Shown in pieces: positions 17,474 through 23,000 of a stretch of DNA of 24,957 nucleotides. A program made the translations under genes and the position numbers. The stretch is from a virus, in the IMG/VR virus record IMGVR_UViG_3300045902_000378, positions 1 through 24,957 of that record. One strand, written 5' to 3'. The notes below the pieces were generated by a model, which saw nothing but the letters and a program-made list of their open reading frames with translations, did no database searches and had not been told where the DNA came from. Position 1 is the stretch's first letter, and each line of letters begins with the position of its first letter.

Positions 17474-17525
17474 ACCGATTCCGCTGCTGAGTCCTTGGCT
17501 TGTAGGGGCTGGGAGCGGAATTGGT
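17474..17525 (+). ncRNA. Long hairpin directly upstream of the tRNA
   Basis: A 12-bp stem (17474-17485 with 17514-17525, one G-T pair) encloses a 28-base loop that can itself form a short 5-bp stem (AGTCC/GGGCT, with one G-T pair). It ends two bases before the tRNA. It may mark a processing site or an attenuator, or be part of a larger RNA. Confidence 0.4.
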
Positions 17526-17527
17526 GA

Positions 17528-17601
17528 TGCGGGGTGGAGTAATCGCGTAACTCGCCGGGCTCATAACCCGGAGACTGCCGGTTCGAGTCCGGCCCCCGCG
17601 A
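17528..17601 (+). tRNA. tRNA-Met(CAT), initiator-type
   Basis: A 74-nt cloverleaf. The acceptor is TGCGGGG/CCCCGCG, giving a U1.G72 non-Watson-Crick end, with discriminator A. The D stem is GAGT/ACTC, the anticodon stem CCGGG/CCCGG with loop CTCATAA (anticodon 17562-17564), the variable loop AGACT, and the T arm GCCGG-TTCGAGT-CCGGC. CCA is not encoded. Three bacterial initiator hallmarks are present: an unstable 1-72 pair, A11:U24 in the D stem, and the GGG:CCC run in the anticodon stem. The D loop (AATCGCGTA) lacks the usual GG, having C where G18 is expected, so activity may be reduced. Confidence 0.85.
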
Positions 17602-17713: not shown

Positions 17714-17896
17714 ATGTTGGTGCTCAGCAGGAAGCCGCGTGAGTCGATTCGGATCGAGACCGGGCGCGAGACGATCGTGGTCCACGTCAACCAGATCGCG
17801 GGCAGCCGAGCCGTCGTGGGCGTCGAGGCGCCGCAGCACGTGCGGATTGTCCGCAGCGAGATCGAGGACGAAGAGCAGGGCTCGCCCGTGGGCTGA
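17714..17896 (+). CDS. csrA: Phage-encoded CsrA/RsmA RNA-binding regulator, 60 aa
   Basis: It opens MLVLSRKPRESIRIE, the signature start of CsrA, and continues with the expected five-strand pattern (IVVHVNQIAGSRAVVGVEAP, HVRIVRSEIED). The conserved Leu4, Ser5, Arg6 and the VxIVRxE segment near the C terminus match the RNA-contact surface of the family. CsrA dimers bind GGA in hairpin loops and control translation or stability of host mRNAs. An AGGAGGA Shine-Dalgarno (17700-17706) lies 7 bases upstream and itself contains GGA. A GC hairpin with GGA in its loop precedes it, so self-repression is plausible. Confidence 0.9.
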   Translation: MLVLSRKPRESIRIETGRETIVVHVNQIAGSRAVVGVEAPQHVRIVRSEIEDEEQGSPVG

Positions 17897-20568: not shown

Positions 20569-21603
20569 ATGTCATCAGCCCTTGCCAATCCACAAAACCG
20601 GATTGCGGACTATTGCAACAAGATTGCCGCCGCCAATCCTTCCGAGGCGGTCCAAATAGCCCTGGCTGAAGCCGAACGGGCCAAGGCTGTCGCCGAACAG
20701 GCGCAAGCGGAATATCGCGCAATGGCCGAAGTCGAGTTTGACGCCAAGGGTCGGATCGTTAAGGCGAACCTCGCGGGTCTGTATCGACTGGCACAAGCCT
20801 ACAGTGGCAGCCAGATCGTACCCGAACAATACCGCGGCAAGCCGAGCGATTGCTTTATCGCCTGCCAGATGGCGTTCCGCTTGGGCGTTGATCCGCTGGC
20901 CTACATGCAGGCCAGCTACATCGTTCACGGCAAGCCGGGCATCGAAGCGAAGTTGGCCGTCGCGATGCTCAACACGTCAGGCCGGATCAAGGGCCGGATC
21001 AGCTACAAGCTCGAAGGCACGATCAAGGACAAGACGCGGGCCTGCACCGCTTCAGCGATCGACGCCGAGACCGGCGAAGTGGTGAGCGCGACAGTGGATT
21101 GGGCGATGGTCGAAGCCGAAGGCTGGGCCAGTAAATCCGGCAGCAAGTGGAAGACGATGCCTGACGTGATGTTCCACTATCGCTCAGCCGTATTCCTGAT
21201 CCGTCTTTACTACCCCGAAGTTCTCATGGGAATGCAGACGCGCGACGAGCTTGAAGACATGGGCGAGGCCGCGCCGCCAGCCCGGAACCTCGCCGAACTC
21301 ACCGCCCGCATTGAAGGGCCGCAGGCCGGCAACGGACAACATGCCGAGCCAGAGGACGTGATTGACGGGAATGCCGATACCCACGACCGCCCCCAAACCT
21401 CCGACGCCCCCAACCACGACCTGGTGGACGGCGTGGAGATGGACCTCGCCGAAGCCACTACCGTCGGCAACTGTGAGGACGCAAAGTCAAAGTGGCTCAA
21501 GCACGCCAAGACGCCGGCGGATGAAACGATGGTCCGCGGCAAGTGTGATGCCAAGGCGAATGAGATTCGGGCGGCGCGCGGGGAGCGATCGAACAAGGGC
21601 TGA
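20569..21603 (+). CDS. recT: RecT family single-strand annealing protein, 344 aa
   Basis: Residues about 10-230 match RecT: CQMAFRLGVDPLAYMQASYI, VHGKPGIEAKLAVAMLN, MPDVMFHYRSAVFLIRLYYPEVLMG. An N-terminal helical Ala/Glu-rich region precedes it. The acidic, Pro-rich C-terminal part (about 235-340) is a flexible tail of the type that binds SSB in some members. RecT anneals strands exposed by the RecE-like nuclease coded directly upstream and supports phage recombination or replication. The gene is followed by the longest gene-free stretch of the early operon. Confidence 0.9.
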   Translation: MSSALANPQNRIADYCNKIAAANPSEAVQIALAEAERAKAVAEQAQAEYRAMAEVEFDAKGRIVKANLAGLYRLAQAYSGSQIVPEQYRGKPSDCFIACQMAFRLGVDPLAYMQASYIVHGKPGIEAKLAVAMLNTSGRIKGRISYKLEGTIKDKTRACTASAIDAETGEVVSATVDWAMVEAEGWASKSGSKWKTMPDVMFHYRSAVFLIRLYYPEVLMGMQTRDELEDMGEAAPPARNLAELTARIEGPQAGNGQHAEPEDVIDGNADTHDRPQTSDAPNHDLVDGVEMDLAEATTVGNCEDAKSKWLKHAKTPADETMVRGKCDAKANEIRAARGERSNKG

Positions 21604-22263
21604 TACTCAACCCCTGGAAGGGCCACGGCGGGATGGGCCGGCAGCCGGCTCTAGCACCTGCGGCCCTCTGGCAGCGAACGCCGGAAGCTGACCAGCGCGT
21701 AAGGTGCGGAACGCAGCGCACCCCAGGCGAAATCAGAGTTTTGGGAGGCACGCGACAACCGACCCTGATTGCCGAGTTGCGCAACCGCAAGGCCGCTACT
21801 TCAACCAATCGGGATGGATGCCAAATGGCCGCGGAAGCGTGACGTACGCCGCAGGGGAGAGACCCAGCGGGATTTTAGCTGATACACCCTGTGGGCCTGT
21901 GAAGCGAGAAATTCGCGGATGAATCGTGGAGGCCAAATACCCGAGGAAGCTGGCCGCGACTGGCAACCTTGTGCGGCTACGGCAAGCGTGGCTGACAGCA
22001 GCCAAAGGCTGATTGATCGGGGAGACCCGACGCTGCCCGGGCTTGTGCCGGCGGCGCGGCGGAGCAATGAGGCCGCGAAACCACGTCGTGCGAGGGGAAG
22101 CCTGAACCGACAGGCAGTGAATCGCACGCTCCTGCCCTACGGCGTCCGAGGCCGAGAGATAAGGCAGAAAGCTCGGGGGCGCGCCGGCGTCCAGAACCGT
22201 GGGATTATCTGGCGGGAATCCATAACCGCCAGACTCCCCGGCCGGCAATTTTTGAAAACAACC
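21604..22263 (+). ncRNA. Candidate large structured RNA (about 650 nt, gene-free)
   Basis: No convincing frame occupies these 660 bases in an otherwise packed operon. Local complementary stems are frequent: 21703-21708/21717-21722, 21731-21736/21765-21770, the self-complementary 21776-21785, 21904-21907/21913-21916, 21989-21994/21999-22004 (6 bp, 4-base loop), 22087-22093/22122-22128 enclosing 22100-22104/22111-22115, 22152-22156/22172-22176, and 22208-22215/22226-22233 (8 bp) with outer 22201-22204/22235-22238. The pattern suggests an ornate noncoding RNA like those of phages (GOLLD, ROOL), but I cannot match any named family. Strand is assumed from the operon. Confidence 0.45.
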
Positions 22264-22698
22264 ATGAAACCAGACGCCCACAAAACGATTGAGCAGTACC
22301 GCATCAAGTCCGGCAAGCTCGCCAGCGACGCGAGTTACGGCAACAACGGCGCGTTCATGCTGCCGCTGGCTGGTGGCAACGGCAACGGAGCGCTGCGGCT
22401 GTTAGATGCTGACGCGCGCACGCCTTCAACACGACTCGTGGCAGTCATCGTCAGCGACGAAGAGGACTGGGATCACGTGTCTGTGAGCCTGCCGACGCGC
22501 TGCCCGACCTGGGAGGAAATGTGCTTTATCAAGGACTTATTTTTTGAGCCGCATGAAGTCGTGATGCAGTTGCATCCGGCCAAAAGCGAGTACGTGAATC
22601 ACCATCCGTTTTGCCTGCACCTGTGGCGACCGCAAAACAAACGCATTCCCGTGCCGCCGACGTGGATGGTTGGACCAAGGAGAGGAGCGGCAGTATGA
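22264..22698 (+). CDS. DUF7694-like protein, 144 aa
   Basis: The start at ATG 22264 is chosen because the sequence upstream in frame is not coding-like. The core has the pattern WDHVSVSLPTRCPTWEEM, IKDLFFEPHEVVMQLHP, then NHHPFCLHLWRPQ, which is the compact His/Trp-rich domain called DUF7694 in phages and bacteria. It has no known activity. Its stop overlaps the next ATG (ATGA). It sits directly after the candidate structured RNA, and its Shine-Dalgarno is not obvious, so the RNA could control it. Confidence 0.75.
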   Translation: MKPDAHKTIEQYRIKSGKLASDASYGNNGAFMLPLAGGNGNGALRLLDADARTPSTRLVAVIVSDEEDWDHVSVSLPTRCPTWEEMCFIKDLFFEPHEVVMQLHPAKSEYVNHHPFCLHLWRPQNKRIPVPPTWMVGPRRGAAV

Positions 22699-22970
22699 AC
22701 CTCGAATCTCTCCACGACTGGCTCTACGGCGCATGCCGCCTGGGCGACCCGGTCACGGTGCGCGATCTCATGGCGGAACTCGACGCGCTGCGGAAGGGTC
22801 CGAAGCCGAAGATGTGGGATGATTTGCCGAAGGACGGTATCAGCATGATCCAGGCGCTCGAGCGCCTCGCCCTGGCGGGCAAGGCGACCAAGGTGATCCA
22901 TGAGGGTGAAGTGGCTTGGCGGTGGTGTGAGCCGCCGGTGAAGGTTCAGGCGCAGGGCGAGTTGTTTTAG
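22695..22970 (+). CDS. Hypothetical winged-helix-like protein, 91 aa
   Basis: The ATG at 22695 overlaps the previous stop by 4 bases. A 91-residue protein with helices followed by a possible beta wing (AGKATKVIHEGEVAWRWCEP), a layout seen in small winged-helix proteins. It has no diagnostic motif. The C terminus GELF resembles short beta-clamp or partner-binding tails, but this is weak. It may be a transcription or replication accessory. Confidence 0.65.
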   Translation: MNLESLHDWLYGACRLGDPVTVRDLMAELDALRKGPKPKMWDDLPKDGISMIQALERLALAGKATKVIHEGEVAWRWCEPPVKVQAQGELF

Positions 22971-23000
22971 GGAATCTGGCGGCAGGGAGAGGACGTGCTG

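Follow-up and report, generated by a model that had tools for sequence, protein, structure and literature searches.

To our knowledge, large phage RNAs with an elaborate conserved structure are few, i.e. GOLLD and ROOL, and no function is known for any of them. GOLLD, which occurs in phages and prophages, is a large structured RNA that is often encoded near tRNA genes, has one half that is less conserved than the other, and is of unknown function (PMC12286853). Similarly, ROOL is an ornate phage RNA encoded near tRNA islands and is of unknown function (PMC12286853). Here, we analyzed a stretch of 24,957 nt of viral DNA (the window; IMGVR_UViG_3300045902_000378), in which a gene-free region follows a recT-like gene. 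The RNA that we describe from this region resembles GOLLD in being phage-encoded and near tRNA genes, with a tRNA at 740-821 of a second contig containing this RNA (L063, see below) and at a distance of about 4 kb in the window, and in having one half conserved and the other less so. It differs from GOLLD in that the conserved half is the 5′ part and in that its core is only about 200-260 nt.

The sequence-only reading of the window had proposed a structured RNA, perhaps of a new family, or a long leader that regulates the DUF7694 gene. In a cmscan search against Rfam 15 covering window 21400-22400 at E<=10 and L063:1-1200 at E<=5, neither core matched any credible family, and the window region gave chance matches only, with the gathering threshold as well as with E<=10. 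Specifically, the GOLLD and ROOL covariance models had no match within these regions and thresholds and, for ROOL, there is thus no sequence or structure in common that the model could see. The RNA belongs to neither family, and the two are its nearest relatives in kind. A module similar to YrlA (RF02553, bacterial Y RNA-like) is present directly 3′ of the core in L063 with a score below threshold; however, the conserved core is not itself a YrlA RNA, and in the window region the permuted tRNA-like module of YrlA and its closing stem are absent (Rfam search, E<=10). Group I and group II introns were not among the Rfam matches up to E 10.

The gap between recT and the DUF7694 gene

The gene-free stretch is flanked by the recT-like gene (20569-21603; RecT by Pfam, PHROG 561) and the DUF7694 gene (22264-22698, with its ATG at 22264). 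No other gap in the window is as large as these 660 nt; the next in size measure 289 nt, ahead of the tRNA, and 199 nt. The G+C content by codon position is flat (0.64/0.63/0.65, with GC3 of real genes at 0.60-0.79), in none of the six frames does the codon score rise above about zero, and searches with Pfam and PHROG against the six frames, with stops read through, gave no match. These data bear out the earlier claim of 660 bases without credible coding and confirm that the gap is real and non-coding. In the region, no sigma-70-like promoter was found and no terminator was called by the scanner.

The stretch had also been described as full of stems. The two named stems exist: 22208-22215 pairs perfectly with 22226-22233 inside an outer GCCGG/CCGGC stem, and the nested stem at 22087-22128 has seven outer and five inner pairs. 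Both, however, lie outside the conserved 5′ half, in the 3′ half for which no homologue was found and, because the genome is GC-rich, stems alone are weak evidence. The whole stretch folds with z = -2.2 on the + strand and -1.9 on the - strand, as compared to a mean z of -0.67 (sd 1.33) for 17 further stretches of 659 nt taken from this phage; 150-nt windows have a mean z of -1.0 inside the stretch vs -0.2 outside, and the two conserved cores folded alone have z of -0.9 and -0.5. Thus, folding energy by itself is unexceptional and not decisive for a structured RNA. On the single sequence (z of about -2), the shuffle test suggested in the sequence-only reading is not decisive; the stretch rises above chance because of its homologue and the covariation with it.

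A homologue in a second phage contig

The stretch contains an internal near-repeat, with TGGATGCCAAATGGCCGCGGAAGC at 21815 and TGGAGGCCAAATACCCGAGGAAGC at 21927, and this motif was therefore chosen as a search pattern. The pattern GCCAAATNNCCGNGGAAGC was present in nine IMG/VR viral contigs, one of which, the 104-kb contig IMGVR_UViG_3300005471_000011 (L063), has the one true homologue, at 304-493. The window core matches L063 with E 5e-16 in blastn (L063:304-486) and E 2e-16 in nhmmer, and identity between the two RNAs is 69-70%, with 69% over 202 aligned columns. Two further patterns, GAGGCACGCGACAACC and GAACGCNGGAAGCN{12,34}ACGCAG, gave 15 and 40 contigs, respectively, all of which except L063 were rejected as not real; exact-seed scans of this type reach only sequences that retain the seed. 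Searches with blastn against phages and plasmids returned nothing or short chance matches, and pseudo-peptide scans, which covered the two strands in viral contigs and a single frame in genome contigs, identified no relative. We also built a covariance model (R1; 176 positions) with window 21668-21870 and L063 304-493 as seed. On 299 + 398 + 188 genomes from three phyla, R1 gave seven weak matches (18-28 bits), all in the second set, that were rejected because many of their pairs are broken and the top match extends into coding sequence; on the 3′ half of the region, it found no second copy. In total, two members of the RNA family were found, i.e. those in the window and in L063.

The two phages have almost no protein similarity. 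The first 40 kb of L063, which was compared with the window, has one weak match to the window proteins (30% over 91 residues) and, therefore, the conservation of the RNA is not a matter of simple phage relatedness. In the window, the RNA has recT on its 5′ side and the DUF7694 gene on its 3′ side, while in L063 an unrelated gene is on the 5′ side and tRNA-like sequence follows directly on the 3′ side, comprising a permuted tRNA module that resembles YrlA, a tRNA with a weak score and a tRNA-Thr. The match to YrlA at L063:532-605 (41 bits, E 3e-8) is under the curated cut-off of 69 and has no broken pair; its layout of T-arm, CAGCC(UUCG)GGCUG and D-arm is that of a permuted tRNA module, here carried by a phage contig. 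At L063:569-634, there is a shortened tRNA-like gene with a variable loop that is nearly absent, arranged head to tail with another tRNA-like sequence. The only tRNA of the window is a tRNA-Met at 17528-17601. A very stable hairpin (17474-17527) lies directly 5′ of this tRNA and is the strongest local fold of the window (z about -6), and a small ORF just after the tRNA (17714-17896) was judged by eye to be a putative CsrA. For the window phage itself, no close relative was found in IMG/VR or among phage records; RecT and the portal-like protein have distant matches only, with no close relatives found for the latter. Based on the integrase, we suspect that the host is a planctomycete.

Covarying stems and invariant loops in the conserved core

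In the alignment of the two copies, identical loops and junction blocks alternate with stems that have diverged yet stay paired (Table 1). All 41 of the 41 pairs in the seven helices of alignment A3 are standard in both copies and nine are changed on both sides; by contrast, in a control in which the partners were slid by one to three columns, 27-41% were paired with 0-2 double changes. With the inclusion of hairpin F, which was aligned by hand, 48 of 48 pairs hold in both copies. Compensatory changes that keep the helices, as expected for a conserved structured RNA, are present in 12 of these pairs, with no pair of the 48 broken; the column shuffles gave 4.6 such changes on average and 11 at most. 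The consensus fold with hairpin F has z = -7.4, and none of 1000 class-preserving column shuffles was as good. Without the structure-guided realignment of F, z is -5.7 on the + strand and -3.5 on the - strand and, therefore, the + strand is favored. Hairpins B, C and F and the apical hairpin of A appear independently in both copies in unconstrained single-sequence folds. Hairpin D and helix E derive from the comparison and are absent from the minimum-energy fold of the window copy, in which other pairing is preferred. The copies differ by indels of 1, 13 and 1 nt, which together with the flat codon positions exclude coding, and the homologue does not encode a conserved protein. The RNA is non-coding, conserved and covarying, it is common to two phages with almost no protein similarity, and it lies outside Rfam. 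The proposal of a structured RNA, perhaps of a new family, made from one sequence thus gains a homologue, covarying stems and the lack of a match in Rfam 15.

Table 1. Features of the gene-free stretch and its conserved RNA (window positions)
Feature	Positions	Strand	Basis	Stems, window vs L063
Whole gene-free stretch	21604..22263	+	G+C flat by codon position, six frames without a protein family, largest window gap	
Conserved RNA core, homologous to L063:304-493	21668..21870	+ favored	blastn, nhmmer, covariation	
Hairpin A	21619..21667	+	apical stem 21635-21641/21645-21651; same position and shape in L063, different sequence	L063: GCGGCGC(UUCG)GCGCUGC
Hairpin B, 8 bp, invariant 11-nt loop GAACGCCGGAA	21668..21695	+	2 compensatory changes	CUGGCAGC/GCUG-CCAG vs CUGACGGC/GCCGUCAG
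Three-way junction holding hairpins C and D	21696..21752	+	closed by 21696-21700/21748-21752	
Hairpin C, 6 bp, loop GAACGCAG (L063: GGACGCAG)	21703..21722	+	4/6 pairs changed on both sides	GGUGCG/CGCACC vs CUGGGG/CCCCAG
Hairpin D, 5 bp	21723..21744	+		CCAGG/UUUGG vs CCAAA/UUUGG
Invariant stretch UUUGGGAGGCACGCGACAACCGA	21740..21762	+	window/L063 alignments	
Helix E, 11 bp, terminal loop that varies (13 nt less in L063)	21759..21817	+	3 compensatory changes	CCUGAUUG/CAAUCGGG vs CAGUAUUG/CAAUGCUG
Invariant 29-nt stretch UGGAUGCCAAAUGGCCGCGGAAGCGUGAC	21815..21843	+	two small predicted hairpins, sequence without variation	
Hairpin F, 7 bp, 1x1 mismatch, invariant loop GAGAGA	21849..21870	+	3 compensatory changes	CCGC-A-GGG/CCC-A-GCGG vs GCUC-A-GCG/CGC-G-GAGC
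3′ part, no homologue found (392 nt)	21871..22262	+	folds somewhat better than shuffled, z -2.4; holds stems 22087-22128 and 22208-22233	
Possible 3′ end	22186..22253	+	GCCGG/CCGGC stem around 22208-22233 hairpin, then AAUUUUU	

The conserved RNA, i.e. the core together with hairpin A upstream, amounts to about 200-260 bases in the 5′ half of the stretch. The end of the L063 copy at 493 corresponds to window 21870, and blastn and pseudo-peptide scans found no homologue of 21871-22262. The core motif recurs in diverged form beyond the conserved core: TGGANGCCAAATNNCCGNGGAAGC is present at 21815-21838 and again at 21927-21950, and the two copies may mark an internal duplication. The terminator-like sequence at 22186-22253, which was not called by the scanner, is a possible 3′ end as judged from its stem and U-rich tail.

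Competing explanations and a model for the RNA

Based on these data, we consider it fairly probable that the stretch gives rise to a structured non-coding RNA that stands alone, acts in trans and is transcribed in the same direction as the operon; its conserved 5′ domain would present loops. Four other explanations were weighed against it. In the long regulatory leader suggested by the sequence-only reading, the RNA would act in cis as a leader or attenuator of the DUF7694 gene, and the stretch indeed ends just ahead of the start codon with a terminator-like 3′ stem. However, the copy in L063 precedes tRNA-like genes and no DUF7694 gene is present in the 40 kb examined, while 46 contigs or loci with DUF7694 relatives lack the RNA, most of them with another gene directly upstream; the RNA is also absent from three loci with RecT relatives. 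The difference in neighbors between the two phages, recT and DUF7694 vs a tRNA cluster, argues against a DUF7694 leader, which we regard as unlikely, and favors an RNA that stands alone in the manner of GOLLD and ROOL. The same neighbors in L063, where the core ends at 493 and is directly followed by tRNA-like sequence including the YrlA-like module and the tRNA, would suit an RNA element tied to tRNAs or tRNA-like sequences, either in their processing or as a joint RNA with the Y RNA-like module, that has been displaced in the window. This possibility has a low probability, because the tRNA of the window is about 4 kb upstream of the RNA and the region has no YrlA-like module.

A DNA element, i.e. 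a replication origin or an attachment or recombination site with inverted repeats that resemble RNA stems, would fit the position within a recombination operon, and single-stranded DNA also forms stems. But there is no DnaA box in 21000-23000, the repeat search found no iterons and the stretch, at 64% GC, is not AT-rich; moreover, conserved loops, covarying stems of unlike sequence and the better score of one strand fit RNA, making a DNA element quite improbable. The 115-codon open frame that continues into the DUF7694 gene could be taken as the trace of a decayed gene or a functionless intron remnant. This we find the hardest to credit, because there is no coding signal, protein match or Rfam match to a group I or group II intron, and because compensatory changes require selection.

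Returning to the stand-alone RNA, we infer that it is a discrete transcript that acts in trans and binds through its loops. In this model, the 5′ domain, composed of hairpins A and B, the three-way junction with C and D, the long helix E, two small hairpins and hairpin F, would display the invariant loops and junctions. Invariant loops on a covarying scaffold fit an RNA whose loops bind something, and the partner could be a protein, the ribosome, another RNA or the RNA's own copies. The ACGC that is repeated in the loops of hairpins B and C may contact the invariant GCGU at 21837-21840, and a further candidate contact is the GGAGG of the junction, which is likewise invariant. The 3′ part would be lineage-specific and may end at the terminator-like hairpin ahead of the DUF7694 gene. 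By analogy to GOLLD and ROOL, the RNA probably acts during infection. We give even chances to the broader proposition that it represents a new class of ornate phage RNA apart from GOLLD and ROOL, in which a conserved 5′ domain is combined with exchangeable 3′ modules and acts in trans during infection; these modules would be the unique 390-nt part in the window phage and the tRNA and Y RNA-like sequence in L063.

The seed alignment and the 176-position covariance model can be used for finding further members. A further RNA family that is present in unrelated phages, and whose loops are identical letter for letter, provides an independent case for addressing the question of what such RNAs do.
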